Shown here one piece after another: positions 3,084 through 51,952 of a DNA stretch of 64,000 bases; position 1 is the first letter of the stretch, and each line of letters begins with the position of its first letter. The DNA lies in the IMG/VR virus record IMGVR_UViG_3300045974_000156, positions 1-64,000 of that record. One strand, given 5' to 3'. Made by a program: the position numbers and the translations under genes. Under the pieces are notes generated by a model. The model was not told the DNA's origin. It did no database searches and worked only from the letters and a program-made list of their open reading frames with translations. Origin of the DNA: a virus.

Positions 3084-4910
3084 TTGGGCTTTATAAACAG
3101 GCTTGCTGGTCCTCTCCGGAGGGCCTTTTCATATAACAAGGACCAGCAGAATTCAATTCTAGCAAAGGGATCCCTATACCCACCGAATTTACCCGGAGGC
3201 ATACTTTCGGGTTACGACGGGCAAGGTATTACAGATAGTCTCAGATTAGATTATGATCTTCTTAGTGCTTATGCCGATTATGAGGGCATGGACAACTATG
3301 ATTTGATTTCCAGCGCCTTAGATATTCTAGCCAACGATGTCACGCAGCTAGATTATTCCAACGGAAAGTGCATGTGGACTACTTCCAAGGACGAGAATAT
3401 CAAGATTGTCCTAGACGACCTGTGGCACAAGACTCTCAGGATCGAAGAAGAGGCGTGGGAAATAGCCCGCACAATGGTAAAAATGGGGAATAATTACGAG
3501 GAGATTCTAGTTAATGACAAGGGCGTTTGTGGACTTAATTTCCTAGATCCAAAAACAATCAGGAGAATAGAAGGACCCTACGGTAACTTAGTAGGATTTG
3601 TTCAGGATTTCTCAGGAAAGACCGGATATACACCAGAAGAATACGAACGTGTATTACAAGCCAGTAGGGGCAGAGATAAGACCAGCAAATTTGAGATGAA
3701 CATGGCTATTACTGCTCTGGAACCCTGGGAAGTTACACATTTTAGGCTCAGGAGTAAAAATAGAAGATCTGCTTACGGTGTGAGCCAGATGGATGGAGCC
3801 CGGTGGGTCTGGAAGCGCCTGATGCTCTTAGAAGATGCCGCTACTGTATTCAGGGTCCAACGCGCTCCAGAACGTTATGCCTTCTATGTAGATGTCGGAG
3901 ACTTGCCCGCCAAGGAAGCACTTGCTTACCTGAATCAAGTCAGGTCGATGCACAAGAAAAAGAAGATGATAGATCCCCAGACAGGAAAGATGTCTCTCAG
4001 ATGGGAAGCTATATCTCCAGAAGAAGACATGTATATCCCGGTTCGCAAGGGAGTTCAGGGAGCCAGAGTAGAAGTTTTGCAAAGTCCCGCATGGCAATCG
4101 ACGGAAGACTTGAACTATTTTCAGGATAAATTATTCGGAGCCATGAAGGTTCCCAAGAGCTATCTAGCTCACGAAGCAGGCGTAGCCAAGGCAAGCCTAA
4201 GCAGCCAGGATGTAAATTTTGCAAAGACAGTTCTGCGTATCCAGCGTGAAATGAAAAACGGCTTTAAGAAAGTAGCTCGCACACATTTGGCAGCCCTAGG
4301 TATAGATCCATACGATGTTGATTACGACCTGAAGATGACAGTACCTTCTGCCATATTCGAGCTAGCCCAGCAAGAAGTCAGGGTAGCTCGCGCAGATCTG
4401 GCAAATAGGATGAAGGCAGACGTTTCACAATACTGGCTACTCTCTAACGTCTATAGTCTTAGTGATGATGAGATTAAAAATATATTCTTGCAGCAAAAAG
4501 AAGACATAGAGCGTCAAGCCAAGAACCAAGCCGCTGCCCAGTCAGCCATGGCACCTCCCGGCGGCGGAATGCCGATGGGACCCCCGGGTGGCGCACCCGG
4601 AATGCCGATGGGAGCCTCAGGAGCCCCAATGGGACCGCCGCCCGGAGCAGGACAGCCCCAAGCCCCAGTATCACCAGAACAAGCGGCTCAGATGCCCCCA
4701 GCGGCTCAAGAGAGCCTTCGACTCACAGGTCTACGAACACCGGGTTATGGGCGTATGACAGAGCAGCAGTTATTTGCAGGAAACAGAGAACATGAGAAAC
4801 GCTTAGAGGATAAATTTGATAAAATGCTACAGTCTGATAAGCTGACTCAACACAGGTTAATGGAAATCGGACAATTACTTGGCGAGCTTAGATCCGCCAG
4901 CAAACGTTAA
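3084..4910 (+). CDS. portal protein (T4 gp20-like)
   Basis: This 608-residue protein should form the dodecameric portal ring at the DNA-entry vertex. The body matches gp20-type portals, including the segment around FLDPKTIRRIEGPYG, a Trp-rich stretch near EPWEVTHFRL, and the basic RVQRAPERYAFYVDVG region. Residues ~475-545 are low-complexity Met/Pro/Gly/Gln repeats, and the C-terminus is charged and helical. The start is a TTG at 3084 preceded by GGGAG at 3073-3077. No closer ATG is in frame. It sits between the large terminase and the scaffold/protease genes, as expected. The GGGAG lies in a 10-base palindrome (3068-3077) that could affect initiation. Confidence 0.88.
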   Translation: MGFINRLAGPLRRAFSYNKDQQNSILAKGSLYPPNLPGGILSGYDGQGITDSLRLDYDLLSAYADYEGMDNYDLISSALDILANDVTQLDYSNGKCMWTTSKDENIKIVLDDLWHKTLRIEEEAWEIARTMVKMGNNYEEILVNDKGVCGLNFLDPKTIRRIEGPYGNLVGFVQDFSGKTGYTPEEYERVLQASRGRDKTSKFEMNMAITALEPWEVTHFRLRSKNRRSAYGVSQMDGARWVWKRLMLLEDAATVFRVQRAPERYAFYVDVGDLPAKEALAYLNQVRSMHKKKKMIDPQTGKMSLRWEAISPEEDMYIPVRKGVQGARVEVLQSPAWQSTEDLNYFQDKLFGAMKVPKSYLAHEAGVAKASLSSQDVNFAKTVLRIQREMKNGFKKVARTHLAALGIDPYDVDYDLKMTVPSAIFELAQQEVRVARADLANRMKADVSQYWLLSNVYSLSDDEIKNIFLQQKEDIERQAKNQAAAQSAMAPPGGGMPMGPPGGAPGMPMGASGAPMGPPPGAGQPQAPVSPEQAAQMPPAAQESLRLTGLRTPGYGRMTEQQLFAGNREHEKRLEDKFDKMLQSDKLTQHRLMEIGQLLGELRSASKR

Positions 4911-5806: not shown

Positions 5807-6682
5807 ATGGCACGCAAACCCTTTAGAGTAACAGCATTGCACGAAGACCTCCTCAAAATAGGTCTAATTTCCGAGGAAGACGCTCACGCCGCCGAAGCTG
5901 AAGCCCAGGCTGCTGAACAAGAAGCCGAAGAAGTTAAGGACTTGGACGACAAGTTAGCCCACGAAGGCGACGAAATCGAGCACCAGGGCGAGGAAGACCA
6001 CAACCCAGAAGAGGAAGAAGAAGGACACAAGGTAGAAACAGAAGCCGAGGAAGCCGAGGAGCACGCTCGCAAATTAGAGCAGAAGGTAGCCGAACTAGAG
6101 AAGAAGCTAGCCTCCCTAGAGATGCACCACGATTCTAATTCACCACCCCCTGAAAATAAGAACCCAATGCACGTTCAAAAGCCTGCGGGCGCTGCACTAG
6201 GTATGCTAGGACAGCAGGAGAGCGCCGCACAGCGCATCAGCAATATGCTGGAGTCCTCAAAGCAGACTCTAGCCGAGTCCGATCAGGTTACCGCAGCAGA
6301 CGCCATCAAGGGCTTTGCACAGATCAGCCTAGTTGCTGATAAGCTAGCCGAGCGTCTTGCCGAAGTTGCCGTACAGCTACAGTCAGAGGAACTCGCCCAG
6401 TTCAGCGATGCCTATGACCAGCTAGCCGAAGAAGCTGCCGAGTCAGCCGAAACCCTACTTCACCTATCAGAGTCAGACGAAGACCTAAACGGCTCTGCAA
6501 TCGAAGAGGATTTCACCAGCATGACCAGCGCCCTCGTTGAAGGTCTAGAGATTTATGCAGACCTAGTTGAAGAGGATGAGTCAGAAGAAGACGACAAGAA
6601 GTGCAAGGATTGCGGCAAGGATCCCTGCGAGTGCGAGAAGGAAGAAGAGAAGGAAGAGAAAAAGGAAGAATCAAAAAAATAA
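5807..6682 (+). CDS. acidic coiled-coil protein, possible prohead core/scaffold component
   Basis: A 291-residue, extremely acidic protein. Residues ~25-105 are almost continuous Glu/Ala/Asp coiled coil. Residues ~120-240 are helical and Ala/Glu/Ser-rich. The C-terminus has a Cys cluster (KCKDCGKDPCECE) followed by a Glu/Lys tail. Small acidic helical proteins between portal and protease fit the T4 prohead-core pattern (gp67/gp68), but I see no sequence match that proves this. The Cys cluster could bind a metal. Start ATG at 5807 follows AAGGAG. It is separated from the protease gene by an unusually structured gap. Confidence 0.7.
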   Translation: MARKPFRVTALHEDLLKIGLISEEDAHAAEAEAQAAEQEAEEVKDLDDKLAHEGDEIEHQGEEDHNPEEEEEGHKVETEAEEAEEHARKLEQKVAELEKKLASLEMHHDSNSPPPENKNPMHVQKPAGAALGMLGQQESAAQRISNMLESSKQTLAESDQVTAADAIKGFAQISLVADKLAERLAEVAVQLQSEELAQFSDAYDQLAEEAAESAETLLHLSESDEDLNGSAIEEDFTSMTSALVEGLEIYADLVEEDESEEDDKKCKDCGKDPCECEKEEEKEEKKEESKK

Positions 6683-6960
6683 TTCTCCGGGAGGGTAGGG
6701 TTGCTAGGAACGTAGATCCGGCTACAGGTGGTCCTGAAACGGGCAAGACAAGGACCACTAGAGGTCGGGAATACAACTATCGTAGCAACCGACTTAAGAA
6801 AATCGGAATAACTAAAGATTTTCTTCACCCTTTTAGGTATTTACGAAGAAAGGCTGGCGGTAGGTTTCACAGGATACTCGATATGAAACCTAACCGCCTA
6901 CGCCGAGACATAAAATTGCTAGGCAGGACGCCATACAAGTGGCGAAAATTCTTAAGATAG
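6601..6960 (+). CDS. doubtful small basic protein overlapping a structured region
   Basis: An open frame of 119 codons begins at a GTG inside the previous gene and stops 17 bases before the protease gene. The product would be very rich in Arg and Lys, and its second half (around DFLHPFRYLRRK and TPYKWRKFLR) looks protein-like. Against it, the only early start is an internal GTG without a clear ribosome site. The same bases form many strong hairpins, so the open frame may be accidental. Either the gap encodes a small basic head protein or it is a non-coding RNA; I cannot decide from sequence alone. Confidence 0.25.
   Translation: MQGLRQGSLRVREGRREGREKGRIKKIILREGRVARNVDPATGGPETGKTRTTRGREYNYRSNRLKKIGITKDFLHPFRYLRRKAGGRFHRILDMKPNRLRRDIKLLGRTPYKWRKFLR
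6699..6944 (+). ncRNA. candidate structured RNA between head genes
   Basis: This gap holds an unusual density of perfect or near-perfect inverted repeats. GGTTGCTA 6699-6706 pairs with TAGCAACC 6783-6790. GTGGTCCT 6728-6735 pairs with AGGACCAC 6751-6758. CCGACTT 6789-6795 pairs with AAATCGG 6800-6806 with one mismatch. TTTCTTC 6820-6826 pairs with GAAGAAA 6845-6851. The 14-base arm 6856-6869 pairs with 6884-6898 with one bulged A. CGCCA 6929-6933 pairs with TGGCG 6940-6944. The stems nest as one closing helix with an internal hairpin followed by a row of hairpins. No tRNA or group I intron core motif was recognised. The alternative is a small coding region listed separately. Confidence 0.45.
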
Positions 6961-6976
6961 TAAAGGTGATAAACAA

Positions 6977-8824
6977 ATGACTACCAAGAAACCAACGCTC
7001 AAGCCGGTCGATCTAGCCGAGAATGAGATTATTCAGGGCAGGGATCTGACCGAAGTAATCAGCATAGGCGAATATAAGGTCATTCAGGAAGATACAGGAA
7101 TCGGCAAGCCCAAGAAGATCAAGCTTGAGGGTCATTTTGGTAATGTCGATATTCCTACCGCAAATGGTAGGAGTTATCCAAGGTCACTATGGGAGCGAGA
7201 GCTTGTTAAGCTAGCCCCGGTAGTTGAAAGCCGCTCCATGTACGGAGAGCTAGACCACCCCAGCGATGGCAGGACAATGCTCAGTCGTGCAAGTCACGTT
7301 ATCACTGGTCTAAAGATTGAGGGTCATCAGGTTATAGGTACTGCCGAGGTTTTGGGAACTACCGCAGGAAAGAATCTGGCAGCCCTGTTAGAAGGTGGTT
7401 GCAAAGTAGGTATCAGCAGCCGTGGATTCGGCAGCACCCGCCCCGGACCAAAGGGTGAGGACGTAGTTCAGGACGATTACAAGCTAGTTACTTTCGACCT
7501 AGTAGCAGACCCGGCAGCCGGAGCTTTCCCTGCCGTATTTATCGAGTCAAAGGGTAATAAGATCCCAGCACGCGCCCTCACGGCAGACCAACTAAAAGAT
7601 ATAAACCCATCTCTCTACCAGGAAATTCGTGAGTCTGTAAAGACAGAGCAGAAGGCACCACTGGAAGAGAGCGAAGATCTAAAGTCCAGATTATTGGATC
7701 AGGCTCGTGAAGCACTCAGGAGCGAATTCAGCCGCAGCATGGCGGTTCATATCGCAGAAGCAAAGGCTGATCTTCGTGAAGAAGTAAAGGCAGAACTCAT
7801 GGCAGACCCGACCGTAGCCGGTGCAGCCAAGGCTCTAGATAATATTAAGAAGGCTATCGCGCCGTTCATGACCAGCGGTTATGTCATGGAAGCCGCCCAG
7901 AGCCTCAAGTCTGGACGCCTGACTCTTGCCGAGAGCAAGAACCAGAAGATCATGGAAGACAAGCTAGCTCAGGCTAATAAGGAAATTGAAGACCTAACCG
8001 GCACTCTCCGCACAGTCGGATACAAGTACTACCTAGAAACTCTAGTTAACCAATACAACGACGCAGATGCCATCAGGAAGCTAGTTGGAGATGTTAGCAA
8101 GTTTGATACATCCGAAGAACTAAAAGCAGCCGTAGAGTCTGTTAAGCAGTCTCTTGATACTGAGAAATCCAAGTATGAGCAGGCTACCAAGAAATCAGAA
8201 AAGATCGTAGAGAGTGTTCAGAAAGAAAAGCAGGATAATCTATCCGGTGAACTAAAGGAATACCAGCGTAGAGAACAGTTAGCCATGAAGCGCCTGATGG
8301 AGATGGAGAACGAACTAAAGTCCCTGTCTAGCGAATTCCACAAGGCTCAGTCAATATCAGAGCAGGCTAACTCATCTGTACAGCAAGTAACCGAAGAGAA
8401 GGAAAAACTAAGCGCCAAGGTAGATCGCGCAGTACAGATCATAGAGTCATACGAACAGAAGATCGCAGCCTCTGAAACAGAAACCCAGAAGGTTAAGAAC
8501 GAGTCCGAAGCCCTCAAGTTAAAGCTCTACGCAGAGCAGAAGCTATCTAGACACCCGAAAGCTGGCAAGATCCGTGAAGTACTGGAAGCCTCTAATCCAC
8601 GCTCATCCAGAGACATAGACCAGATCGTTGATAAATTCCGTGAACCAGAAGTAGATTCTGATTTACTAGAAGATGTCAGAGCCAGAACAAAGATGATGTT
8701 GGGTCGCCCCGGTGGTCGTCAGAGCACCCCAATGGAAGAAGAAACAAGAGTAAACAGTAGACCAATCCCGGCAATCGGAATTACACCAAACGACTTCAAG
8801 AAACTAGCCGGTATCAAGGATTAA
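6977..8824 (+). CDS. prohead protease fused to a scaffold domain (T4 gp21-like N-terminus)
   Basis: A 615-residue fusion. Residues ~45-195 match phage T4 gp21-type prohead serine proteases. His94 lies in GELDHP and the Ser147/148 pair in GISSRGFGS, and the segment FDLVADPAAGA is typical. The enzyme should mature the prohead by cutting scaffold and capsid proteins after assembly. Residues ~200-560 are long charged helices with coiled-coil character, consistent with an internal scaffold. The C-terminal ~50 residues (SRPIPAIGITPNDFKKLAG) may anchor to the shell. T4 keeps protease (gene 21) and scaffold (gene 22) separate; here they are one chain. Start ATG follows AAAGGTG. Confidence 0.85.
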   Translation: MTTKKPTLKPVDLAENEIIQGRDLTEVISIGEYKVIQEDTGIGKPKKIKLEGHFGNVDIPTANGRSYPRSLWERELVKLAPVVESRSMYGELDHPSDGRTMLSRASHVITGLKIEGHQVIGTAEVLGTTAGKNLAALLEGGCKVGISSRGFGSTRPGPKGEDVVQDDYKLVTFDLVADPAAGAFPAVFIESKGNKIPARALTADQLKDINPSLYQEIRESVKTEQKAPLEESEDLKSRLLDQAREALRSEFSRSMAVHIAEAKADLREEVKAELMADPTVAGAAKALDNIKKAIAPFMTSGYVMEAAQSLKSGRLTLAESKNQKIMEDKLAQANKEIEDLTGTLRTVGYKYYLETLVNQYNDADAIRKLVGDVSKFDTSEELKAAVESVKQSLDTEKSKYEQATKKSEKIVESVQKEKQDNLSGELKEYQRREQLAMKRLMEMENELKSLSSEFHKAQSISEQANSSVQQVTEEKEKLSAKVDRAVQIIESYEQKIAASETETQKVKNESEALKLKLYAEQKLSRHPKAGKIREVLEASNPRSSRDIDQIVDKFREPEVDSDLLEDVRARTKMMLGRPGGRQSTPMEEETRVNSRPIPAIGITPNDFKKLAGIKD

Positions 8825-8827
8825 TAA

Positions 8828-9460
8828 ATGCCGAAGAGTGCATATCTAGAGAATAAGACCATAGATTGGTTAAGGGGGCAGACATTCCTGTCTCCCCCTA
8901 CCAATACTTATCTTGGACTTCTAGTAGCCACTCGTGGGTATGCTAATTTAGTAAGACAGTCCATGGTATTTATGGGCGACACTGTAATACCGACCACTCC
9001 CAACGGTAGTGTATATTTATGCACTACTCAGGGCGTATGCGGTGGCACAGAGCCAGCTTGGAATACCGCCCCGGGTAGCACCACAGCAGACGGGGCGGCA
9101 GTATGGACTGAACAAACAAATGCTATAAAATCCGGTACGGTAGTGGAAGTTAATTTCACCGGTACGAATTATAGCAGGCTGGCTATACCGTCTAATATGA
9201 CGGTCTGGTCTGGAACCCAAGGGCTTGGAACAACAGGAGCCAGCGTAGGGACCAGCGGTCAAACCAGTAATAATTTCCAGCTAACTATGGCATTACCTAT
9301 AGGCTCTCAATGGGGGCTATGCTGGGCATCATGTTTATGGGATTCCGCAACTGGTGGGAATCTGTTATACTGGGGTCCGTTGGATAATCCTCAGTATGTT
9401 AATGCTAGCTCTATCGCACCAATAATTTCTGCTGCCGCATTAAGAATTACCGAGAACTAG
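8828..9460 (+). CDS. small virion protein, YLENK-type
   Basis: A 210-residue protein starting three bases after the protease-scaffold stop. The N-terminus (YLENKTIDWLRGQTF ... TYLGLLVATRG) follows a pattern I know from many short phage structural proteins. The rest is rich in Thr, Gly, Ser and Trp and looks all-beta. It contains an insert with G-T-x-PAWNTAPGS-type sequence like those in fibre or decoration proteins. It shares the 'LGL / YVGLHS' type segment with the next gene and may be a head-decoration or fibre paralogue. The precise location on the virion is unknown. Confidence 0.65.
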   Translation: MPKSAYLENKTIDWLRGQTFLSPPTNTYLGLLVATRGYANLVRQSMVFMGDTVIPTTPNGSVYLCTTQGVCGGTEPAWNTAPGSTTADGAAVWTEQTNAIKSGTVVEVNFTGTNYSRLAIPSNMTVWSGTQGLGTTGASVGTSGQTSNNFQLTMALPIGSQWGLCWASCLWDSATGGNLLYWGPLDNPQYVNASSIAPIISAAALRITEN

Positions 9461-10261: not shown

Positions 10262-10936
10262 ATGGCTTTAACTAGACAGAGGAAAGTTACTCCCGAAATA
10301 GAAGCACAAATACGCAAAGAATATGAGGCAGGAGCATCCACTCCGTATCTAGCGGAGAAATATAAGATGTCTAGACCCACAGTTGGCTATTCTATTCAGA
10401 ATGCTGGAGGATCTCTAAGAGGAAGAGGCGGGCACATTTCTTCCCCAATAACTGGATTTGCAAATGATGAGATGCTGGTTAGAGAGGTTCACGCTGAATA
10501 TGAGAATGGTAAATCTCTTAAGGTTATAAAGCAGGAGAGAAATCTGAGTGCCCACGAAAGCATGATACTTAGCTCCTTCCGTAAATATGGTTTAGCAGTA
10601 AGAAACTGCGGAACTGTCCCTACGGTAGAAGCCTATATAGATAACCAAGGATATCGCAGGGTCAGAATAAACATAGAAGATCCCATGTGGAGTATGGCTC
10701 TATCAGGATATTATGGTGATAACAGGCGCACAGCCACAATCCTAGAGCATCGTCTAGTGATGGCTCGCAAGATAGGTCGCCCCTTGCGCGAAGAAGAAAC
10801 AGTCCACCATATAAATAATAACAAGCTAGACAACCGCCCCGAGAACCTTGAGCTTCATGTCGGTAATCATGGCAAGGGCGCGACACAAGCACACTGCCAT
10901 ACCTGTACATGTTTCAACGGCTCACAAAATATCTAG
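10262..10936 (+). CDS. HNH homing endonuclease with N-terminal helix-turn-helix
   Basis: A 224-residue probable mobile endonuclease. Residues ~10-50 form a helix-turn-helix (around TPYLAEKYKMSRPTVGYSI), and a second similar segment lies at ~70-105. The C-terminal HNH domain has EHRLVMA followed by TVHHINNNKLDNRPENLEL, with the His-His pair at residues 182-183 and the N-K-x-D-N-R-x-x-N core. A Cys/His-rich tail (HCHTCTC) ends the protein. It is bounded by a terminator and its own promoter, typical of a self-contained inserted homing gene. It would cut DNA lacking the insertion and spread by repair. Confidence 0.88.
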   Translation: MALTRQRKVTPEIEAQIRKEYEAGASTPYLAEKYKMSRPTVGYSIQNAGGSLRGRGGHISSPITGFANDEMLVREVHAEYENGKSLKVIKQERNLSAHESMILSSFRKYGLAVRNCGTVPTVEAYIDNQGYRRVRINIEDPMWSMALSGYYGDNRRTATILEHRLVMARKIGRPLREEETVHHINNNKLDNRPENLELHVGNHGKGATQAHCHTCTCFNGSQNI

Positions 10937-13508: not shown

Positions 13509-14540
13509 ATGGCTAGTCTTGCTATTACACATTCTTTCGTATCTGGAGTCGCAGACGGGGCAGATACTACTCTAGTCAGACCTTCTGACTGGAATAATAC
13601 ACATTCCATAACAGATCAGACATTTGATATATCCCACCTATCTCCAAGTGTAAGGCTAATAAATCCAAGACAGCTTGCTACTCTACGATGGTATCCGGCT
13701 AATTTGGTTGGACATACACCCCTAACAGGCTACACAGGAATACAAGGTTGCTGTTTTGATGGACTGAATATTTGGATAGGGTGTAATGGTGGGCTAAATA
13801 ATGTCTACAGATATAATCCCTATACTGGTGTGGTCACTACTGCTAAAACGGGAGTCACTACTCAAACTCTTTGTTTTGATGGTACGAATGTTTGGGGCGC
13901 AGCAGGCTCTACAGTTTTCTGGATTAACGCCGGGACACCGACAACGAATGGAACCATAACTGCCGGAACCAGCACTGTAGGTTGTTGTTTTGATGGGCAA
14001 TATATATGGGTTTCCGACGCAGGGTCCAACAATATATATAAAATCAACGCAGCAACAAAGACACTGGTTAGCGGTTATTCGGTCGGGCGAACCACCTATT
14101 CTTGTTGTTTTGATGGAACTTATGTCTGGTTTGGTGGATATCTGAATACAGGGCTAGTAAAATTTAATCCAACCACCAATACAGTAGTTAGTACTTATAC
14201 ATTCCCAACTTTTACAGGACCTGTCTGTTATGATGGTCAGTATTTGTGGACTGCGTATTATAATTCAATCGGACCCGGTGCTGTCTATAAAATTAACCCG
14301 AGTGACGGATCTATATTAAGCACTCTCACTCCGGGTAGCTATTTTTCTGCGGGTATTTGTTTTGATGGGAAATATATATGGGTATCCAGTATTGCTGGTA
14401 GCGTTGTTACTCAGATATCCACGGCAACCGGTACCATAATAGGTAATTACTCTGCAGGTACCAGCCCAATTAATATTTGCTTTGACGGGTCTAAAATTTG
14501 GGTTACTAATAATGGTGTTGGGTCTCTACAGATACTATAG
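13509..14540 (+). CDS. tail-fibre-type protein with a seven-bladed beta-propeller (copy 1)
   Basis: A 343-residue virion-type protein. The N-terminus (ITHSFVSG...DGADTTLVRPSDWNNTHSI) is a motif I know from many tail-fibre proteins and probably attaches the protein to the virion. From residue ~75 there are seven copies of a C-F/Y-D-G-x-x-I/V-W motif about 35-45 residues apart (e.g. CCFDGLNIW, CCFDGQYIW, ICFDGKYIW). This is the hallmark of a beta-propeller with seven blades. Many motifs begin with a Cys pair, which could form disulphides. It is the first of three adjacent paralogues. A receptor- or sugar-binding role is likely; exact ligand unknown. Confidence 0.8.
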   Translation: MASLAITHSFVSGVADGADTTLVRPSDWNNTHSITDQTFDISHLSPSVRLINPRQLATLRWYPANLVGHTPLTGYTGIQGCCFDGLNIWIGCNGGLNNVYRYNPYTGVVTTAKTGVTTQTLCFDGTNVWGAAGSTVFWINAGTPTTNGTITAGTSTVGCCFDGQYIWVSDAGSNNIYKINAATKTLVSGYSVGRTTYSCCFDGTYVWFGGYLNTGLVKFNPTTNTVVSTYTFPTFTGPVCYDGQYLWTAYYNSIGPGAVYKINPSDGSILSTLTPGSYFSAGICFDGKYIWVSSIAGSVVTQISTATGTIIGNYSAGTSPINICFDGSKIWVTNNGVGSLQIL

Positions 14541-14548
14541 GTCAAGAT

Positions 14549-15565
14549 ATGGCTATCACTCACACACTTGTTAATACAAATCTAGATAATTCTAATACAA
14601 CATTGGTGCATCCTGGGGATTGGAACGCCGATCATGTGATCGCCCCCGGGTCTATCACGCAGCAGATGCTAGCCCCCGGTGCCTATGTAAACTATGATCA
14701 GGTAGCACAACTCAGATGGTACGATGTTAATCGGACAGGATATGCTATCTCTACGCAACCGCAGCCTTGGGGTGGCTGTTTTGATGGTCAAAATATTTGG
14801 GTAGCAAACTATGGCGCATCTATTATGTCTAAGATAAATGTCAATACTTTGTCAGTGGCTAATGTAACAGTAGCGGGATCACTCACCGGTTGCTGTTTTG
14901 ACGGTCAGAATATATGGGCCACCAACACGGCTGGTTTATATAAAGTTCTAGCATCTACCGGAGCTACAGTGGGTACCTATACTATGCCATACGCATCATA
15001 CGCAAATTGTTGCTTTGATGGGCAGTATGTGTGGACGGCTAATTATTATAACACTAGTGTAACAAAATTTAATACATCCGGAGGCGTAGTAGGAACCTAC
15101 CCTGTTGGCGGTAATGCTTATTTCATTTGCTTCGATGGCACATATATTTGGACATATAATTATTCTAGTACCGCAGCCTCCATCAGTAAGGTCTTAGCCT
15201 CAAATGGAACCTTGGCTGGTGGACCATATTCAGCCCCTAATGAATCTGGAGGTCAAGGTGGCATTTGTTATGACGGAAAATATATTTGGGCGGGAGGGAC
15301 TTCTGTAGCTAAGTATGATCCATCTACTGGTACTAGAATTCAAACCATATCAACACTTGGTGGAGGAACTTGGGGCATGTGTTCAGATGGTTATTACGTA
15401 TGGACTGGCACAGGTAGTGCATCAGGGTATATTAATAAGATTAGGTGTTACGATGGTGCCCTGATAGCTACCCCGACCATAGGCGGCACTGCTGTGTCAC
15501 CCTGTTATGATGGTGTCAGAACTTGGGCTTTTTCATACGGTGGTAACACAGCGTATATTTTATAG
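14549..15565 (+). CDS. tail-fibre-type protein with a seven-bladed beta-propeller (copy 2)
   Basis: A 338-residue paralogue of the preceding gene, 8 bases downstream. It keeps the anchor-like N-terminus (ITHTLVNTNLDNSNTTLVHPGDWN) and a QLRWYDVN junction. It again has exactly seven C-x-D-G...W blade motifs (GCFDGQNIW to PCYDGVRTW), although the last two are degenerate (MCSDGYYVW, PCYDGVRTW). Loops between blades differ widely from copy 1 while the blade cores are conserved. That pattern is expected if the loops bind different ligands. The three copies could be alternative or heteromeric adhesins. Confidence 0.8.
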   Translation: MAITHTLVNTNLDNSNTTLVHPGDWNADHVIAPGSITQQMLAPGAYVNYDQVAQLRWYDVNRTGYAISTQPQPWGGCFDGQNIWVANYGASIMSKINVNTLSVANVTVAGSLTGCCFDGQNIWATNTAGLYKVLASTGATVGTYTMPYASYANCCFDGQYVWTANYYNTSVTKFNTSGGVVGTYPVGGNAYFICFDGTYIWTYNYSSTAASISKVLASNGTLAGGPYSAPNESGGQGGICYDGKYIWAGGTSVAKYDPSTGTRIQTISTLGGGTWGMCSDGYYVWTGTGSASGYINKIRCYDGALIATPTIGGTAVSPCYDGVRTWAFSYGGNTAYIL

Positions 15566-15580
15566 TATTATGGTAACCAT

Positions 15581-16606
15581 ATGACTATTACTCATCAAAA
15601 AGTTAATACATACTCGGACGGAACACCGGCTACCGTTGTTCAACCTAGCAATTGGAATGCTACTCATACGATTGGGGCAGGGACCATAGGTTTAGCAGAG
15701 CTAGCCACAAATGCCATCCTAAATAGACAACAGATCGCCCAACAAAGATGGTACCAGGCTAACAAGACGGGAACCACTATCACTGTAAGCACAGGACCAT
15801 CTTACTGCTGTTGTGATGGTCAAAATATATGGGTATCTAACTCAGGAACTACAACAATATCAAAGATATCCATAGCAACCAAGACAGTAGTGGGCACCTA
15901 TACCGTAGGGACTAATCCTTATGGATGTTGTTATGACGGTCAAAATATCTGGGTATCTTGTTACGGCTCTAATAGGGTGTACGTTATAAAAGCATCTGAC
16001 GGTAGTGCAGTTAATAATTACGCGACAGGAACTGGACCTATCGGTATCAGTTTTGATGGTCAAAATATATGGTGCTGCAACTATGGTGGCGGCTCAGGTA
16101 ATACAATTACTAAATTACTGGCTAGCAACGGAAGCTTAGTCGGAACGTACTCCACAGGCACAGGTCCAAATTTGTGCTGCTATGACGGCACTTATATATG
16201 GACTAGTAATTACGGACCAGGAACAGGTAGTACTGTATCCAGATTATTGGCGTCGGACGGTAGCTCCCAGGGTACATTCGCGGCAGGTACTACGCCAGTC
16301 GGCATGTGTTTTGACGGTATTTATATTTGGGTATGTAATAACTCTGGAACCACCATTACAAAGCTCAAGGCGTCTGACGGATCCTCAGTAGGAACCTACA
16401 CACTAGGTAGTCAACCACAAAGTTGTTGTTTTGATGGTAGGTATGTTTGGGCAACGAACTATGCCAGCGGAACTGTTTATAAAGTATCCGCTGGAGATGG
16501 AACCATTCTTGGACCTTACACTGTAGGATCACTACCGATGGGGATTTGCTTCGATGGTGCCAATATATGGGCTGTAAATAACGGTGGAAATGTAACTCTT
16601 CTATAG
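15581..16606 (+). CDS. tail-fibre-type protein with a seven-bladed beta-propeller (copy 3)
   Basis: The third paralogue, 341 residues, 15 bases after copy 2. The N-terminus repeats the ITHQKVNT...PATVVQPSNWNATHTI pattern and the QQRWYQANKTG junction. Seven blade motifs are present: CCCDGQNIW, CCYDGQNIW, ISFDGQNIW, CCYDGTYIW, MCFDGIYIW, CCFDGRYVW, ICFDGANIW. Blades carry regular 'ASDGSSVGTYTLGSQP' outer strands, so this copy is the most regular of the three and may be closest to the ancestral form. The function is inferred to be surface recognition. Confidence 0.8.
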   Translation: MTITHQKVNTYSDGTPATVVQPSNWNATHTIGAGTIGLAELATNAILNRQQIAQQRWYQANKTGTTITVSTGPSYCCCDGQNIWVSNSGTTTISKISIATKTVVGTYTVGTNPYGCCYDGQNIWVSCYGSNRVYVIKASDGSAVNNYATGTGPIGISFDGQNIWCCNYGGGSGNTITKLLASNGSLVGTYSTGTGPNLCCYDGTYIWTSNYGPGTGSTVSRLLASDGSSQGTFAAGTTPVGMCFDGIYIWVCNNSGTTITKLKASDGSSVGTYTLGSQPQSCCFDGRYVWATNYASGTVYKVSAGDGTILGPYTVGSLPMGICFDGANIWAVNNGGNVTLL

Positions 16607-17102: not shown

Positions 17103-20100
17103 ATGGCTATTCAATTTATAGGCGCAACCACAGCGACAATAACGCTAACAACCTCTGTACAATACCCATTCATTTACGCTACACCCGATTGGCAACCCGG
17201 GGATCTTACTCTTCTACAAATCGTAGGGTGGAGTAAAAACTATATAGATCAGTCAGCCATAGCCGCGTACTGGCCTCAATGGACACTACTGACTAGTGAT
17301 GCAGATCAAACAATATACTACACTACTCAGACTAATCAGATCTGCGCCCAGACATATATATCTGGTTCTGGTGCTAATGTCGTCATTAACATGGCTACAT
17401 ATAGAGGTGTTAGTTCCGCAACATTTATAGGATCTTACGCACCCTCCGGGCTTGGGACAGTAGCAGCCCCTGTCAACGTTTCATGGAATAGCGGAGCTTC
17501 AACTACAGGTCCTTATAACGTTGTTGTATGTCTAGGCGAAGCAGACATGCTCAACTCGTCCGGAAATGCCTCGATTGCGTCATTCCGAGCTACTGGTGCC
17601 ATAACGACAACTAGGATAACAAGTACTAATCTAGTAACTGGTACTGGTGGATATAAGTTTGCTACTTCCGGAGGAATTTGGGATGTAGTAAAACCGACTG
17701 CTAGCGTGATAGGGAATCAAACCATTTCCTTTACTACATCAGGCGTCGGACCTTATTACAATGTCGAAGCAGGTATTGCCGAGGTAGAGTTAACTAGAGA
17801 TTATGCACCACAGTCAATCGAAGATGATAGTGACGCAATAGCTTCAGACTCATGTGACGCAAATGTATCAAGCTGTAACGAGGAATCCGAAGTCACTTCA
17901 ACGGCAGATGACTACCGTGCTGGATTCTATGTAAACGTAGTAGAGAACGAAGCCCCTATTCCGTCAGATCCTAGTGATGCAAGATTCTCCATAAATCTAG
18001 GCGAATCAGAGTCTCAGTCAGTAGATGATACTCATTGCTGGGACATACTCCACTCTGGTCATTGGGTCCGCAATACTAGTTATGCTGATATCGGATTAAT
18101 GACGACCGTAACCGTAACCATAACAGTACCTACATTGGTAGGATATGGCACCGCAGTATTTAAGAATGATGCAGGTACACTAACCCTGGGTATGCCAGCG
18201 GGCATACAATCTGGCGATATATTAATTGTTGCAATGAACGTCAATGGGGGTGCCTCAAGCACCACGCCTGCCGCCCCGTCAGGCTGGACACAAAAAGGTT
18301 GGGTAGTAAACAACCAGTTATCAATGTACTGGAAGCGCACGGATGGAACTGATACGAACGTAACCTTCTCTACAGCCATCAACAGTAGGTGCCTTGGTTT
18401 TGTCGTAGCATATAGAAATTGCATCGCCTCTGGAGATCCGTTTGATGTAGTCGGAACCTGCGCGAATGTATCAGGCTCATCCAATGCAACAGCACCTTCA
18501 ATAACAACAACTACTGCTAATAATAAAACTATAGCCTTAGGTATGGGTGTAAGTTTTTCAGGAAGCAGCGCCGCGTTGTCAGCCACATCCGGACCAGCCC
18601 TAAACCTAGTATCGCAGCAGATAAATTATTGGGCCGGGGCAGCATATCTGTATGGTGTCGGCGTATGGGATGTTACTAGTGCAACACCCGGGGCAACTGG
18701 AGCAGAAGTTATAAACTGGAGTGGTGGTGCCACTAACGTATTTACCGGCGCTCAGTTATTTTCATTACTCGGATCTACATTTACCAGTGCAGCGATAGCT
18801 CCAAGTAATTTTGTAGCTTCAGATTCTTTCGGGTCTATCAATAAAGCAGTCTCGATAGAAACTGAATCCATACAACCGTTAGATAACGTAGATAAAGCCG
18901 CCACTCTAGCTGGACGACTGCCGACTGCTGATTACGCAACACCTTCAGACGCTAATTTATATACTATGCGCTTGAATGCAGGAGGGGCTCGGGCGTCAGA
19001 AACTCAGGTACTGGTTGACAGCCTTGACGCTCGCGTAAAGTCTAGAAATATTGAAAATGACGTAAGTTCTATAGGTACTATCTCGTATGTAGGATCTGGC
19101 GCAACTGCACTGAGCCATAGATCCGCAGTAGAGGTATACGCCCCAATAGGTATCCTACCGGGGGATGTATTATTTCTAGTAATCGATACACTTTATGACC
19201 AGAACCAAACGGGTGTATACCCATCCATAGAAGGAACTTGGAGTACTCTGGCTGGTTTTGGAAACTGTGCAGCCATATTCTGGAAGTATGCAGAAGGTAC
19301 CGAGACATCATTTACATTAGACGGTACAAATGGCTCCTACGCATCAGCGTTTACCTTCGCATATCGCAATTGTAGCCCAGTTAATGCGGTAGGGTCTTAT
19401 AACTACAGTCAGGTAGGAGGTTCCACCACCTCGTTAACGACTATGACCCCGCAGATTCCTGGTTCTACTTTGGTGATGATAGGTGGAGGGTTAGTTCAAG
19501 ATCCTTCACTTATCTGGAATAATCCAGTAGTCGGTCCAATACCCACGACACTAAGAAACTCTACTTACTCAAGCTTCATAGGGTCGTACCAAACAAGTAT
19601 GGCTCTGTGGGATACTGTACAGACAGTCCCTGGAGCCACAGGATCTCCTACTATCTCTTACTCTGACGCGACCAGCGTCACATTATTCGGACAGTTCATA
19701 GCCCTATCCCCTGTATATAGCTATGTTGAGGAAGACGATACCGCAGGATTAATGATAAGTGCCAAGGAGGTAGAATCTACATACCTAACCCCCGTTGTTC
19801 TACCCGCACCAAGACCCTCGTTCGTAGCTGCCGGTGCGGTAGTCAATACATACGCAGCAACTACCTTATCAGTACCCCTCCCGGCAGGAATTCAGACAGG
19901 CGATTTACTAATAATCCAAGCCAACAACATAGGCGCAGGTCAGACAACTCCGGTCCCTGTGGCTCCAGGTTGGACCCTTCTTAATAGCTACGCAGCGTGT
20001 CTGGATGCCTTCTGGTACAAGATAGCAGTTCTTCCAGAGCAGCCAGTAACACTACAGACAACAACGCCCAACTGCTCTTTCTCTGCCGTGATGGTCGCCT

Positions 20101-23100
20101 ATAGGGGTGTAGACCAGAATAACCCCATAGATGTTTATCATGACTATGAAGCAGAATGTGGTGCTAATTCTCAAGTAAGCTCCACTGTTACCCCGAATTA
20201 CGCCAATGATACCCTACTTTATTTTGCATACTACTGGACCTCCGGTACCGTTTCAGCTTTCGTTTCGCTTACCGGAGCCACACCTACCCAGAGAGCTATC
20301 GCTAATATTCATGATACTTGGGGATATACAGGTACAGCAATATATGAAGGGGCTGGACCTACCAAGCCAGGTATAGCCTCCGGTACCACTACAGTAAATA
20401 TAAACGGAACTGCGGCTAATAACTGTATAGCGGGTATGATGGTAGCCCTTAAGGGAGCCACGGTAGCCGATATACTAGTTGGCAACGTATCTTTTGGTAC
20501 CAAAGATGACGGTACCATGTATGCAACACCGATAGATGGTAATCAGTCAAAGAATCATGTTAGTGTTTCAGAGTCAGAAGATAATGATACTTACGACTCC
20601 TTCGATGTCGGTGTTCGTGTTAAGGCACAAGAGATCGAAACTGAGAACATAAATCTAACTACTATCCCGACACTAGTTGGTTGGGGTGTGACAGCCTATT
20701 CAGAAGGTCCGACAATCACGGTACAGGTACCTACAGATCTTCAGGTCGGTGACTTGCTACTTCTCCCTTGGTTTAATTTTGGTCCACAACTAGTGCCACC
20801 AACAGGGTGGACAGCAGCCGGTGCTAACCTATATTGGGACTTATACGATGGTACACAGACATCCGTAACCCTGACAGGCGGCTCACCAGGAGCATCAGGA
20901 GCGTCAGCAGCTAACATCATCGCATACAGAGGTGCAGACCAGAATAACCCCATAGATGTTCAGGCGACATCCTTTGGTACCAATGTTCTTTCACTGATCA
21001 TACCTTCTGTAACCACAAGAAATGCAAACGAGAGAATACTAGACGTAGGCTTATTTTTTAATATTTATACTGATCCTGTATGGAACGGTGGTCCGATAAC
21101 CTATTCCAGTAGTATCTACCCACTTACAGGTACTTTTGCAAATTGGTCAGAAGGCTTTGCTTTTTGTGACTCGACAAAGCCTGTCGCGGGTGCCACGGGT
21201 ACCACAACCTTAACAACCGCAACAAATTCAGCTAATTTTTATGGTTGGAAGTATGCGATCAACCCAGCCACAGGGGACGACTACTCAGTAGGTTTCTGGT
21301 CAGCCAGAACAGAGTTAGATACATATACTTACGCACTAGATAGCGATGTACAAAGAGGCGGTATTAATCTAGGCAGAATGGGTATACTGGAGGCTTATAC
21401 ACCTGTAGATAATTGTGACAGTAAATTAAAGTCAGCAAATAGAGAAAATGACATAACTACGCCGAACAGTATTACCTATATCGGCAATAGCCCTCCGACT
21501 ATTTGGCAAAGTAATGTAGCTACAATACAAGTTCCAGATAACGTCCAAGCGGGTGATGTTCTCATATTCGTAGCAAGCTGCATCGTTGTAAACGGGTATC
21601 CTCCGACTATATCGGGAGCCTGGAACACCATCTATGGTGGACCGTACATAGGGGCTTATTGGAAGTATCACGATGGAATCGATACATCATTTACGGTAAA
21701 TGGTGTTGGATACTACGGAACTGGAGTTATAGAAGCTTATAGGGGTTGTGATCCCATAAACCCAATCGGCGCAACACTTTCAGCCGGTAATGCAGCCTTA
21801 TCGACCTACACCATAGGATCCATTACACCCTATGATGGTCAATCTACCGTAATCGCAGTCGGAGTATCAGTTAGTCAAAGTCAAGCGATGTCGTGGTTAC
21901 CTCCAACCGGATTAGCAACCAACCTAAGAGATCAGACCTTAGCAAACGTCTATGCTCAATACTGGGACAGTATAAGCATATGGGACGCACCTCAGTACAT
22001 TCAGGGCGCGACAGGCACAGAGACCCTCTCATGGACCGCAGGGACTTATGACAACCTAGCTGGTCTATTATTCTCCCTATCACCAGTATCTTCATACCCA
22101 GATGAAGATGAAGACATGGGTCTATTTCTAGGTAAAAAAGCACTAGAGACCTACACCTTCGCTGCTCAAGATCTACCACTTAAGAATATAAGCTTCGGCA
22201 CTGTTTATGGCGATGGGGTTCTTAATGCAACCCCTATTGATGGGCAGACACTTAAGTTAAAGTCTGGCGATGAATTTGTTGATTCTGTATCACCTCAAGA
22301 CGGAAACGAAGCTAAATATAAGTCAACCAATGCCGAGTTAGAATACGTTTCACCACAAGAATCTGCTACCTATGAGTACTACGGGGTCTCTGGTCATGAC
22401 CTAGTAGCACGAGATATCATCGAGTCAGAGGCTATATTACAGGACTCGAATAACGCTAAGTTCAAAATAACAGCCGCAGAGATAGAATACCCAACACCTC
22501 AAGAAGACTGTGATTTTTCATACTCATCTGCTAACAAAGAGGCAGAGTCCACTCAATTAAGCATAAGCCCGTTACCATACTTTGTCGGGGCAGGACCTCT
22601 AGTATTCACCTACACTGCACTCGGAGGCGTTACACCGTCGATCCCCAGCGGAACACTAGCTGGCGACTTAATGCTGTTAGTTACATTCACATCTAACTAT
22701 AATGGTGCAGGATTAACAAAACCGTCTGCTGACTGGACTTTAGTCGATCCGTCTGGTTATAGGGAATGGACTCTATACTATAAGTTTGCTACAGGGAGTG
22801 ATACCTCTCCGACAGTATATGGTGTAAGTAACAACAATGGTGCCGCCTATATAGCTACATATAGAAATGTAGATAACACAACCCCGTTTGATAGCTATGC
22901 TTCTGCCGGTGGAGCTTTTAACGCTTCCACAACATACACATCGGATCCTTATACTTTACCAGTATCTCTACTAAGTAATTACTTTTTTTCAATATCGATA
23001 AGTGGATCAGCCACAACGCAACGCTTTGCACAGGGCGATCCAAACAGCTTCACACAATATGTACTAGACGGACCATTCGCCTACAGTACAAAAACAAATA

Positions 23101-26100
23101 CAGAGACAGTGACGGTCGGAGGAAACGGTGCAATTAACATATTTTCGTTCTCACTGAATGCAAAAAACCCATTCACAGTAGATTCAAACACTCTAGGTCT
23201 AATTACACAAAAAGAAGAGTCCGAGGCAGCAATACCTCAAGAAGTCCAGACCGGAAGATACGGTACCAATAACTCCCAGTCCGAGACTTATGTCGTTGCA
23301 CAGGATATTTATGCGACAGGCAACAGACCTCCAGGTACTTTTGCTGATTCTACCCAGCCACTAGATTCATTCGATGTCGGAATAGCCTTCGCAGGTAAAG
23401 AATCTGATTCTGGTCAACCTGCGGATACTTATGCAAAAAGTAACAATCCTAATCGCGATCTTCAGGACTATGTAACACCTCAAGACTCTAATAATCTAAA
23501 ATTCCGGGCAGGTATATCTTATGACGACGGACCTATACCCCAAGAAGATCTAGATCTTGGTCTAAAGGTAAATGGAAAAGAACTAGAGCCTGTAGCACCA
23601 CTATTTTACTTCCAAGGCATAACTCCCACGGAGTTCCCGCCTGAGATAAATAATTTTTATACCTATACTTCTACACTGAGCGGACCATACGGGTCTCCAC
23701 TGGCCCCAGACGGCACAGCTACAGCGTATAGCGTAGGTACTCCACTTGGAACCGGACCTAACGCATTCTACCTACTAGGACCATCTCCTACTTATGTTAC
23801 AGGTAATCAATATGAGATAGGGTTCTGGGCAAAATATGGCGGTGGGACTCAGCCTGTTGTATATACCTGTACAGATAAAGTAAACGTATTTTTCGATGTC
23901 TCTACCGGTCTAGTTAATAATACATACCAACCCTTGGTCCCGGGTGTAGATTACGACACCATAAGCATGACCCAACTAGGTTCTACCGGTTGGTACTACT
24001 GTTACTGTAAGTTCACAGCAAGACAGACGTATACAAACGCCACATTTGGTCAGTTGATTTGGGGACTTACCAATAACACAGGATATTCTACATCTGGCGA
24101 TCTTATTTACATCTGGAAAGGCACTGTTGCGCTACCAGGTTCAAGTATAAATACACCGCAGGATGATGTTGACTACTTGTTGGTTAGCCCAAGAGAAGAA
24201 CAGGACACACTAGTAGTTAGCGGTGATAATCAAACACTTAAACTTAATAGCGGTTCGCCAGAGCTAGAGGTTCTATTCCCACAAGAGGATGTTGATGCTG
24301 CGTTTAGCATACAAGCTCAAGAAGCAGATGCTGGAGATCCGGAAGATGCATACTCTTATGACTTCCTAGATAGCTCTGGAAGAGGTAATAGCTATAGCAA
24401 AGATCAATCTGAATCCGTCATGGCGTCAGATTCTAGCAAGTCCAGCTTCAGGATCAACTTATCTGAAGCAGAAGCAGTAGCGGCTCAAGACCAAGAAATT
24501 ATCGGAAGCGTAAAGCTTACACGCCAAGAAGTAGATCTAAGCAGCGGAATGATTAATCTAACCGCTACACAGGCTCTACCATCACAAATAGGTAGCTGGG
24601 TCACCAGCACGGCGACGTTATCAGGTCCACTAGGATCCCCAGGTGCGGCTGACGGTTCTCCAGATGCCTACAGCATCAGCACCCCGATAGCCGCTGGTCC
24701 CAATACCTATTACTTAACAGGAACCACACAGACATATGTAGTTGGAAACACCTACTCGTTCGGATTCTGGGCCCTAAAAGGACCTGGGTCGAGCAATTAC
24801 GTTTGGTACAGCACAGATTCCGCCAAACTCTACTTCGATCTTTATAACGGGGTGTTCTACCCCAATGGCGCAGTACAGAATACAGACTACAGCACAGTAA
24901 GCATAATCGAATATGGCGACACTGGTTGGTACTACTGCTACGGTACATTCAAGGCTAGAGTCACTTCTAAGCAAGAGCAATGGGGTATATATAACGGCAC
25001 AGCATATTCGCAAGCTGGCGATACTATTTATGTCTGGAACGATACCGACCGCTCTCTAGCTCAGACTGGTAGTGGATTATTCGGACGAATATACGGAAAC
25101 TCTACCCCACTAGATGCTCAAGTTTCAATGTTTGGTATCAATGCGGAAGAGTCAGAAACCCTAACGCCTTCAGACAGCATACCTGCAACCACCATATCAT
25201 ACACGGTAGCTTATCAAGATTCTGTAACAGCACAGGACTCTAGCAACTCAAGACTAAAGAGCGCAAATCAAGAGCTTGATTACTTAGAAGCAGGACAAGA
25301 TAATGATGATCAAGACGCTAGATTCAAGGTAAGAGCAGCAGAGTCTGAATCCGAATCTCTAGGTAAGACTCCTCCTACGTTTGTAAACACAGGGGCATTT
25401 ACAGCCACTCCATCTACACTTATACAGGTACCTATACCGGCAGAAACTCAGGCTGGTGATGCGCTAATATTCTACTTCTACGGTGGTTATTATCCGCCAA
25501 CACTATCTGGGTGGAATCAGTTTTGTGTAAATACTATAAATAATGGTAATAACAGCGCCATATACTGGAAGATTGCATTAGGTAGCGGGCTAGATATCTA
25601 CCCGATCATAGGCGATGGTGTTAATTTTGCGACAGCAATGATAGTTGCATATCGTAATTGTAATCCAGTTAACCCTATAGATAGTTACGGAATAGGTGGG
25701 AATACTAGTACAACATCAGCTTCGATTGCAGGCGTAAGAACGCTATCAAGCAACACACTTCCAATAGTTATTGCTACCAACAATACATCAGGTACCCCAG
25801 CAGGATTTAATACCCCGACAGGGGCATGCACTACCCAGAGGGCTTTCGGATCTGGATTGGCAGGAAATACTATTGGTCAGGTACTCTGGGAAGGCAGCGT
25901 GCAGCCCAGTGCCGGATTCACGAATGCTGGCGAAACAATTACAGCTACAGCACTCTCATATTCAGTAAGCGGAATATTAATAAACTTAGCATCTTCCGGG
26001 GGCATAGATTCCGAAGATAGCGAATTAGTTACTATCGGACAGAAAATAGAGACTCAGATAGTTAGTGATGAATCACAAAAGTCTAACTTTAGTATTACCC

Positions 26101-29100
26101 AGTCAATTAAAGAAATCATATTAGGTGCCTCAGATACTGGTTCTTGGGACTACCTATCGGGCTCGCACACAGGGAATGTTTATAACAGAAATCAGTCAGA
26201 TTCTATACAGCTTATAGATGTAAATGGACAGTCACAATTCGTATTGACTGAGATATCAGAATCCATAATACCTCAAGACCTAGCAGCAGGTTCCCCTTCG
26301 TTTATCATGGACGAAGTAGAGTCTGTGGCTGGATTTGATGATATCTACACCGGACAAAGTATCACTGCAACGCAAGTCGAGACCGAGATACCTCTAGACT
26401 TTGACCAGGGAGGTAGGGCGTATCTAGCATCAGAGCAGGATCTGGACGTTGTAGCTATAGAACTTGAGTCTGACGCCGAACAGGTTGGCACAGCAGAGAT
26501 CGAGACACAGGTCATCACTCCAGACGAAGAGTCTGATTCTTATCAGATTTCCACAAATCTAAGTGAACAAGTCGAAGCACTCGATAGCCAGTACGTCAGT
26601 ATAATTAGCGGAGCAGACTACTCACAAGAAGACAGTTTATATCCTGACGACTCTCAAGACGTTGGACAAACATACAACGGCGAGCAGTTAGACGGTGATT
26701 TACAAGCTAGCGATGAGGAAGATCTGCTATCTAGCAACGGTGTTGATCAGCTAGAAGGCGATACCACACCTGTTGACGACCAGATCGCTGGAGTCCTAAA
26801 TGCATCAGATCTGTCCCAGGAAGATGACTTATACGCAGATGAATCACAGGACGGTGGTGTACTGAATGGATCTGATCAGTCCATAGAAGACAACATAACA
26901 TTAAGCGATGAACAGGATCTAGGTCTAGGTCTAGGATCTCAGATCGATGAAGAAGTATATCCTGATGAACTACATGACTCAAATATAGATATTAACTGCG
27001 AGACTCTTGAGGGTGATCTATACGCCGACGACTCACAATATGCAGGCATAGCACAAGGGTCGGATAACTCCCAAGAAAATAGTCTATATACTGATGACCA
27101 ACAAGATTTGGGTCTAAATGTCGGAAGTGAGACACAAGAATCATCTATCTCCACTGATGATCAACAAGAGTTGGGTCTGGACCTAGGCTCTGAGATACAA
27201 GAGTGGGACCTGTACACTGTCGAATCGCAAGATAATGGAACCTTGATAGGTTATGGAATCTCTCAAGAGGAGATCGCACAGTCCGAAGACTCACAAGATT
27301 CAGGTGTAACACCTGGTTCTGATAACTCTCAAGAGGACACCCTATACGCTGACGACCAACAGGAGCTAGGTCTAGACCTTGGTTCCGATACACAAGAAGA
27401 AGCCCCTTACGCCAGTGACGCACAGGAATTAACCATAATAAGTAGCTCCGAGTACCAAGATTACGACATATACGCAGGCGAGTCGCAAGAGGCAGGACTA
27501 GCTCAAGGGTCTGATAACTCTCAAGAAGAGGTTCTATATACTGACGATCAGCACGATTTGGGTCTAGGGCTCGGCTCAGACATACAAGAGGTAGATGTTT
27601 ACACCTCAGAGCAGCAAGATCTGATCTTATATATAGCTACTGAGGAATCCGAATCTGATCAGATTCTAGAATCGCAAGATTCTAACTACACCATAACCGC
27701 CGACGAATCAAACTCCGTTGAGGGTGTAGACCTTGAGATAGAGTCAGAAGACTGTACAACAAATATTTCTGAAAAGCTGACAACATATGCTCAAGAAGAG
27801 GTAAGTGCGTCTATAAGTTCCGAGGAATCAGATGATCTAGAACCGGTTGATGGACAGGACTTTACATTAACAGTAATTGGAGAGCTATTTGAATCAGGGC
27901 AGGGGTCGGATCTAGAAGAAATTAATCAGATCCTAGCAGGCGAATTAGATGAATCTGCCACAGGAGAAACACAAGAGGGTGTAGCACTAGCATTAACCAG
28001 AGCAGAACTAGAGTATGAGACTATATCTGATGAGCAAGAAGATGCTTATTTTGATATAACCGCCGAGTCCAGTGATTATGCTCAAGGTTCAGATCTTGAA
28101 GACTCTATACTGTCTGCAACAGTAGAAATATCCGAGCAGGCAGAGGCGTCCAGCGAAGAGACTACAAATAAAACATTGTGGGCATCAGAATCTGATGATT
28201 GGCAGCCATCCGACGAAATAACTGTCGGTAACACAATAGGGTTAGACGATTCTGCATATACATCCGCTGACGAATCTGAAGACTCCATTTACAGCATCCC
28301 GGCATCCCTGTACGAAACTGCCGAAGGCTCGGATGAGGGAACCGGCTCAGTGGTGGCTACATCTGATATCAACGAATCTACCTTGGGGTATGGCGAAGAA
28401 GACACTGCATTAAATCTAGGCTCTGATAACTCACAAGAGGAGAGCCCATATCTGGATGACTCACAAGAGTCAGGCTTAATCCAAGGATCTGATAACGCAC
28501 AAAACGATGATCTACAGTCTAGCGAGTTACAAGACTCAATCCAAGTATCTAGTCTAGATACACAGGATCAGGTCCCCTACGCTGACGATGTTCAGGATTT
28601 TGCAACAATAATAGGGCTGGATTCTTCTCAAGAACTGTACGCAGATGAATCACAGATCGGGGCGATACCTCATGCTGTAGAACTGCCCGAGTCCACCGAA
28701 GCCCAGGATTCTCAAGATCTATTGGTATATGCTTCGGACGACGAATCAGAGTCCACAGAGGCTCAAGAGTCACAGGATGTCAGCTACGTCATAACAGCCG
28801 AGCAGTCTGAATTTATCGTAGGCGTCGATGAAGAGGTAGATTCAGAATACTGCACTACGAACATATTAGAATACGTTATTACAAAAGATGAGCTAGAATC
28901 CGGATCATTTATAAACTCTGTGCTCTCGGATAGCCTAGAGGCTAGCGATGAAGTAGGGGCTAGTGTTGCCTTCGCAGAAGACTTATACGACTCAGAAGAG
29001 GCTCAAGATTCAGAAACTCTTGAGCTTAACCTTGGATCTTCCGAACTTGATCTTAACGAAGTTTCTCCAGAAGATTACGAGGTCGAAGGACTTGACTTAA

Positions 29101-42537: not shown

Positions 42538-42645
42538 CCGCATTGTTATCGAGTTACCCCGATGGACCCCGGGAGGGGCACCCAGAGGGCAGCAAGTAAA
42601 TCCCCAGACCCGTATTTTACGGACAACAAAAGGACAATAAAGATT

Positions 42646-51000: not shown

Positions 51001-51027
51001 AGTCCTCTAACCGGAGGCTACCATGCC
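50993..51027 (+). promoter_or_regulatory. hairpin that hides the ribosome site and start codon of the GIY-YIG gene
   Basis: GGCATGGTAG 50993-51002 pairs with CTACCATGCC 51018-51027, extended by CCTC 51004-51007 with GAGG 51014-51017 and one bulged T. This 14-pair stem buries both the CCGGAGG ribosome site and the ATG at 51023-51025. Any transcript entering from the upstream fibre gene should be translated poorly. Confidence 0.7.
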
Positions 51028-51899: not shown

Positions 51900-51952
51900 G
51901 TTCTGGCTGATTTTTTGTGGGATAATGCTATGGATCCTACCGGAGCCAGAAC
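51900..51952 (+). promoter_or_regulatory. inverted repeat ending at the ATG of 51953, with a -10-like box inside
   Basis: GTTCTGGCT 51900-51908 is perfectly complementary to AGCCAGAAC 51944-51952, which includes part of the GGAG ribosome site and touches the ATG at 51953. Inside the 35-base loop GATAAT 51921-51926 is a -10-like box. A transcript started there would lack the 5' arm. Confidence 0.5.

Follow-up and report, generated by a model that had tools for sequence, protein, structure and literature searches.

Among phage proteins, tail chaperones and some major capsid proteins are known to be made with frameshifting (PMC10885494; PMC5009743), the latter including the major head protein of Lactobacillus phage A2 (PMC10885494) and gene 10 of T7 (PMC5009743). 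The carboxysome assembly protein CsoS2 (cso2), which belongs to an icosahedral shell, is made in two lengths through a -1 frameshift with a 3' stem loop (PMC5009743), while gp67 and gp68 are proteins of the T4 prohead core (PMC9026906). Within the literature covered, from which most subscription papers are absent, no paper was found to describe a frameshift for a prohead core or scaffold gene; the class of mechanism is known and the gene context appears to be new. The analysis concerns a 64,000-nucleotide stretch of viral DNA (IMG/VR record IMGVR_UViG_3300045974_000156; "the window" refers to this whole stretch), and within it a strongly folded gap between an acidic gene of prohead-core type and a prohead protease gene. 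With a probability of roughly 0.85, this gap represents a -1 frame extension of the acidic gene, reached by programmed -1 ribosomal frameshifting, by which a fraction of the acidic protein would gain a basic tail of 93 residues. The functional unit is accordingly wider than the interval 6699-6944, which a preliminary description of the DNA had proposed as a structured RNA, and extends from a heptamer at 6673 to a stop at 6960.

Slippery heptamers and the frame of the basic extension

The locus consists of the following features:

5807..6682, plus strand: acidic prohead-core-type protein, zero-frame open reading frame (ORF) of 291 amino acids, assigned by position and by an N-terminal motif L-x-E-D-x-x-x-I-G-L similar to that in relatives
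6673..6679, plus strand: slippery heptamer A_AAA_AAA, flush with the zero-frame stop; no other strict heptamer stands in frame in the 18 genes of the window that were checked
6680..6682, plus strand: zero-frame stop TAA of the acidic gene, as read in the sequence
6679..6960, plus strand: -1 frame extension with a basic domain (...Y.S.R...IG..K...RTP..W), 93 codons plus stop, recognized with a hidden Markov model (HMM) of relatives; predicted fusion of 384 amino acids

In-frame sequences with three A or three G followed by AAAN were counted as strict heptamers. The acidic gene ends in TCA AAA AAA TAA, and codon shuffling of the acidic tail in the window places a heptamer at this position with a probability of 0.005. 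A scan for the basic family yielded 64 loci, 48 of them non-identical, which were thinned to 35 lineages of less than 80% identity, the window included; the relatives compared are distant ones. At 45 of the 48 non-identical loci, the basic ORF reads in the -1 frame with respect to the ORF preceding it. In 24 of the 35 lineages a strict heptamer falls among the final eight codons of the acidic gene, as against 0.2 expected and a maximum of three in 2000 codon shuffles; with the whole overlap counted, the figure is 29 of the 35. These heptamers are mostly G_GGA_AAC, the variety comprising GGGAAAC, GGGAAAA, GGGAAAG, AAAAAAC, AAAAAAG and AAAAAAA. As judged from the sequences, the existence of several different heptamers points to a selection on slipperiness. 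Furthermore, the stretch tested for start codons lacks ATG, GTG and TTG in 26 of the 35 lineages, and in five (L062, L065, L088, L106 and L116) a stop closes the -1 frame just upstream, the frame opening exactly at the heptamer.

Two side observations were made among the relatives. A sequence CGCCCTAYC, possibly another shift site, is common to L079, L091 and L100 near the acidic stop, and at 2714-2932 of L014 the basic ORF, likewise without a start codon, is in the +1 instead of the -1 frame.

Coding capacity of the -1 frame

In the relatives the basic family is marked by the motif RRTAYSSGRREx(I)G and a C-terminal RTPFRSNFRW. The HMM, built from 19 relatives with the window left out, gives the -1 frame ORF of the window 13.7 bits, more than any of 10,000 shuffles with identical composition. 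The matched region spans Y.S.R...IG..K, and RTP..W is retained at the C-terminus. The small basic protein which the preliminary description had named as a competing reading of the same bases is thereby supported. Its frame is indeed coding, but rather than being free-standing it most likely constitutes a -1 extension entered at the heptamer, which had been overlooked. The overlapping frame was further examined through synonymous and nonsynonymous differences, as had been proposed earlier. In the extension of the relatives, 258 of 371 differences fall at third codon positions of the -1 frame, and 231 synonymous codon changes stand against 74 nonsynonymous ones (for both counts, the pairs overlap in part). 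The frame is retained in distant relatives, while the hairpins at the same place differ.

Database searches yielded no described counterpart. Neither Pfam, searched with the window member, nor PHROGs contains a match to the basic family, and no described family in either collection matches the acidic or the basic proteins. No homologue of the basic protein was found in named phages, whether the protein of the window or that of a relative served as query. Used alone as queries, the basic ORF and the portal of the window retrieved no relatives; phage records showed no DNA similarity to the window, and genome contigs contained no relatives. AlphaFold modelling of the basic tail from 14 sequences gave no confident fold (mean predicted local distance difference test score 56, predicted template modelling score 0.13).

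RNA folding of the gap

Folding predicts four elements downstream of the heptamer:

6682..6696, plus strand: small, weak 6-base-pair hairpin just 3' of the heptamer (2 nucleotides)
6699..6790, plus strand: main nested three-helix hairpin, with an 8-base-pair closing helix (6699-6706/6783-6790) around helices of 7 and 9 base pairs
6796..6825, plus strand: 9-base-pair hairpin
6856..6898, plus strand: stem of 14 pairs, interrupted by a single bulge, within the sequence that codes for the basic domain

The dense helices reported at 6699-6944 were confirmed, as this interval folds at -88.9 kcal/mol and 200 dinucleotide shuffles give -58.3 +/- 4.8, not one of them folding as well (z -6.4). The stems named in the preliminary description are present, the 8-pair closing helix enclosing nested helices of 7 and 9 base pairs. 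On a grid scan of the window (mean z -0.48, standard deviation 1.2) the gap is an outlier, but it is not unique, since other folded places within coding genes, at 8980 and 51925, reach -4.6 to -4.7. In the same grid scan strongly folded stretches within genes were noted at 8857-9226 and 51925-52170 (z -4.2 to -4.7).

The structure can be told apart from the coding requirement by recoding within an unchanged protein and an unchanged set of codons. Against such synonymous recodings, 6680-6957 has a z of -5.05 and none of 500 folds as well, and therefore the folding goes beyond what the overlapping protein requires; 28 control tiles of other genes have a mean of -0.65, a standard deviation of 0.9 and a minimum of -3.2. 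The excess is found at 6699-6790 (z -3.95, 2 of 500 recodings folding as well), at 6791-6957 (z -3.55) and around the 14-pair stem (6845-6910, z -3.65). RNA and protein had been presented as competitors; the structure and the protein are both real and hold at once, the RNA structure being a second layer upon the coding sequence.

In the relatives, with dinucleotide shuffles as reference, the 80 nucleotides downstream of the heptamer have a mean z of -1.9, where controls range from -0.1 to -0.9; with synonymous recodings as reference, the RNA downstream of the heptamer has a mean z of -1.7. A covariation signal was obtained in one clade of six sequences, where a hairpin beginning 7 nucleotides after the heptamer has four pairs changed on both sides, few as these sequences are, although this hairpin is not the window's own. 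The covariation score is 0.207, compared to 0.096 when shuffled (0 of 500 as high) and at most 0.056 when slid. This extra folding and the covariation within the clade make a downstream stimulator likely for the family, as far as can be judged from sequence comparison. In bacterial and phage -1 cassettes the stimulatory stem or pseudoknot is located about 5-9 nucleotides 3' of the heptamer. A further feature of such cassettes is a Shine-Dalgarno-like stimulator upstream; the acidic tail of the window is rich in GAG and GAA. Rfam gave no match at gathering score in the window and none credible locally, relaxed thresholds included, and the exact DNA pattern taken from the stem was not found in viral contigs.

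Alternative explanations

Several observations weigh against a programmed frameshift at this locus. The acidic tail is A-rich, which makes a run of A likelier by chance. Both a start codon and a canonical heptamer are missing from three lineages (L079, L089 and L100). The HMM match of the window reaches an E-value of only 0.6 over its full length and 0.0023 for the best single domain, in a search over all window ORFs, and for this reason the window ORF is regarded as a divergent member of the family. The main hairpin of the window starts 19 nucleotides past the heptamer, as against about 7 in the relatives; owing to this distance, its role as a candidate frameshift stimulator (6699-6790) is less certain. 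Also, the structure beyond 6790 has no role in a frameshift model. Finally, the window contains GTG codons at 6601 and 6631, in frame with the basic ORF, which could in principle start a separate protein, and among the relatives L091 and L112 have an ATG, while L109 and L114 carry a stand-alone basic gene.

The last of these points lead to the most serious alternative, a separate small basic gene expressed without any frameshift, either from an internal start in the acidic gene (GTG 6631 or 6601) or through reinitiation at the acidic stop. The GTG at 6631 is preceded, about 9 nucleotides 5', by AAGGA, and an ATG or GTG is present at the junction in some relatives (L112, as ATGA, L091, L088 and L077), as would suit such a gene. 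Nevertheless, most of the 26 lineages lacking a usable start still have the exact heptamer at the acidic end, and the exact opening of the -1 frame at the heptamer in five lineages speaks against an internal start as well. On this comparative evidence, an internal start would be the lesser reading for the window, and we consider a separate gene unlikely.

Another explanation would be transcriptional slippage on the seven consecutive A at 6673-6679, producing a mixed pool of mRNAs and the same fusion protein. Seven A are however short for slippage by bacterial RNA polymerase, and the commonest heptamer of the relatives, GGGAAAC, is not a homopolymer, for which reason slippage was rejected as the main mechanism and is regarded as very improbable. 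The least probable explanation, by a little, is a functional non-coding RNA with an incidental ORF, be it a prohead or packaging RNA, a processing site or a regulator of protease translation as first suggested, since although the extra folding extends over the entire ORF and at 6791-6957 goes beyond what a frameshift stimulator by itself would account for, there is no Rfam match, the relatives preserve protein and frame while their hairpins differ, and the differences cluster at third codon positions. A packaging or prohead RNA as the main function was rejected, as Rfam is blank and the gap codes for protein in the relatives.

Genomic context

The locus is embedded in a T4-like head module, with a portal (Portal_T4) and a protease (Peptidase_S77) gene both present beside the gap:

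3084..4910, plus strand: T4-like portal gene (Portal_T4 match, 7e-63)
6977..8824, plus strand: T4 gp21-like prohead protease, joined in one gene with a scaffold-like coiled region (Peptidase_S77 match, 1e-16)

The assignment of the flanking gene as protease and scaffold, made in the preliminary description, agrees with this match. The gap is thus placed between the acidic core-type gene and the S77 protease, and a tape measure gene is not its neighbour. The gene order in the relatives is the same as in the window (portal, second gene, acidic gene, small basic ORF, protease), and a protease motif follows the basic ORF at 44 of 46 loci examined. With the window protease as query, distant relatives were retrieved from viral contigs, the best at 33-36% identity. 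An intein-like segment apparently interrupts the portal genes of the relatives L003, L005 and L006.

Elsewhere in the window, a single ORF of 6283 amino acids with many acidic repeat units (17103-35954) lies between the head genes and a likely major capsid gene at 42562-44241, some 34 kb from the protease and assigned by size and position only; given this placement, the T4-like head module would be split by large virion genes. A very alanine-rich low-complexity stretch (39257-41000) is found within an ORF of 2137 amino acids (36078-42491). Three neighbouring paralogous genes at 13509-16606 have repeated CFDG-x-x-I/V-W units and are propeller-like, and two genes, at 10262-10936 and 51023-51595, resemble homing endonucleases (HNH-like and GIY-YIG-like, as judged by eye).

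Proposed mechanism and its meaning

In the proposed programmed frameshift, the majority of ribosomes would stop at the TAA at 6680-6682 and release the acidic protein of 291 amino acids. A minority would slip by -1 on A_AAA_AAA at 6673-6679 and read 93 further codons to 6960, giving an acidic protein of 384 amino acids with a strongly basic C-terminal tail. The folded mRNA downstream, chiefly the nested hairpin at 6699-6790, probably makes the ribosome pause and determines the proportion of the two products. Both forms would then enter the prohead core beside the S77 protease, where the basic tail could touch an acidic partner protein, the shell, the protease or DNA. The sequences show a coding -1 frame that the relatives conserve, the heptamers, the lack of starts in most lineages and the structure, and from these we infer the slippage, its efficiency, the role of the stimulator, the location in the core and the role of the tail. 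A function of the tail is suggested by its charge and by gene position.

Dozens of uncultured T4-like phages appear to share the proposed frameshift, which seems to be so far undescribed. It seems somewhat more probable than the contrary that a large uncultured T4-like group frameshifts a charge-reversing basic tail onto a fixed share of the molecules of an internal acidic core protein, that the RNA of the tail is selected for structure over its full length, and that the composition of the core is set at translation. A conserved frameshift in the internal head core would add a location to those in which phages are known to set protein ratios through translation, and may also explain a seemingly missing gene, as the basic ORF usually lacks a start and would be overlooked by gene callers. 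The locus thereby offers a concrete and testable cassette.

Comparison with known systems

The G/GT genes of lambda and other tail assembly chaperones share with the window locus and its relatives a short downstream ORF, without a start in most of the lineages compared, in a phage structural module. These adjoin the tape measure gene, while the window locus is situated in the head module between the acidic core-type gene and the protease, and the extension in the window, unlike that of the lambda type, is a short basic tail which no described family of PHROGs or Pfam matched. The genes of T4 gp67 and gp68 adjoin the gp21 protease gene and the core proteins derive, to our knowledge, from separate genes; as core proteins encoded beside that protease they are functional neighbours, although the acidic and basic proteins matched no family. 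In T7 gene 10 and phage A2 frameshifting yields a longer, minor version of a head protein, as proposed here, but there it is the major capsid protein that is extended, and in the window an internal acidic protein of core type. The dnaX gene of E. coli is similar in its A_AAA_AAN heptamer and downstream stem loop; there the frameshift gives a shorter product, unlike the extension in the window, and the stem loop is near the heptamer, whereas the main hairpin of the window is 19 nucleotides off. CsoS2 is a non-phage protein and is likened to the window locus by mechanism, not by sequence: a shell assembly protein is made in two lengths via a -1 frameshift and a 3' stem loop, as proposed for the acidic protein of the window.
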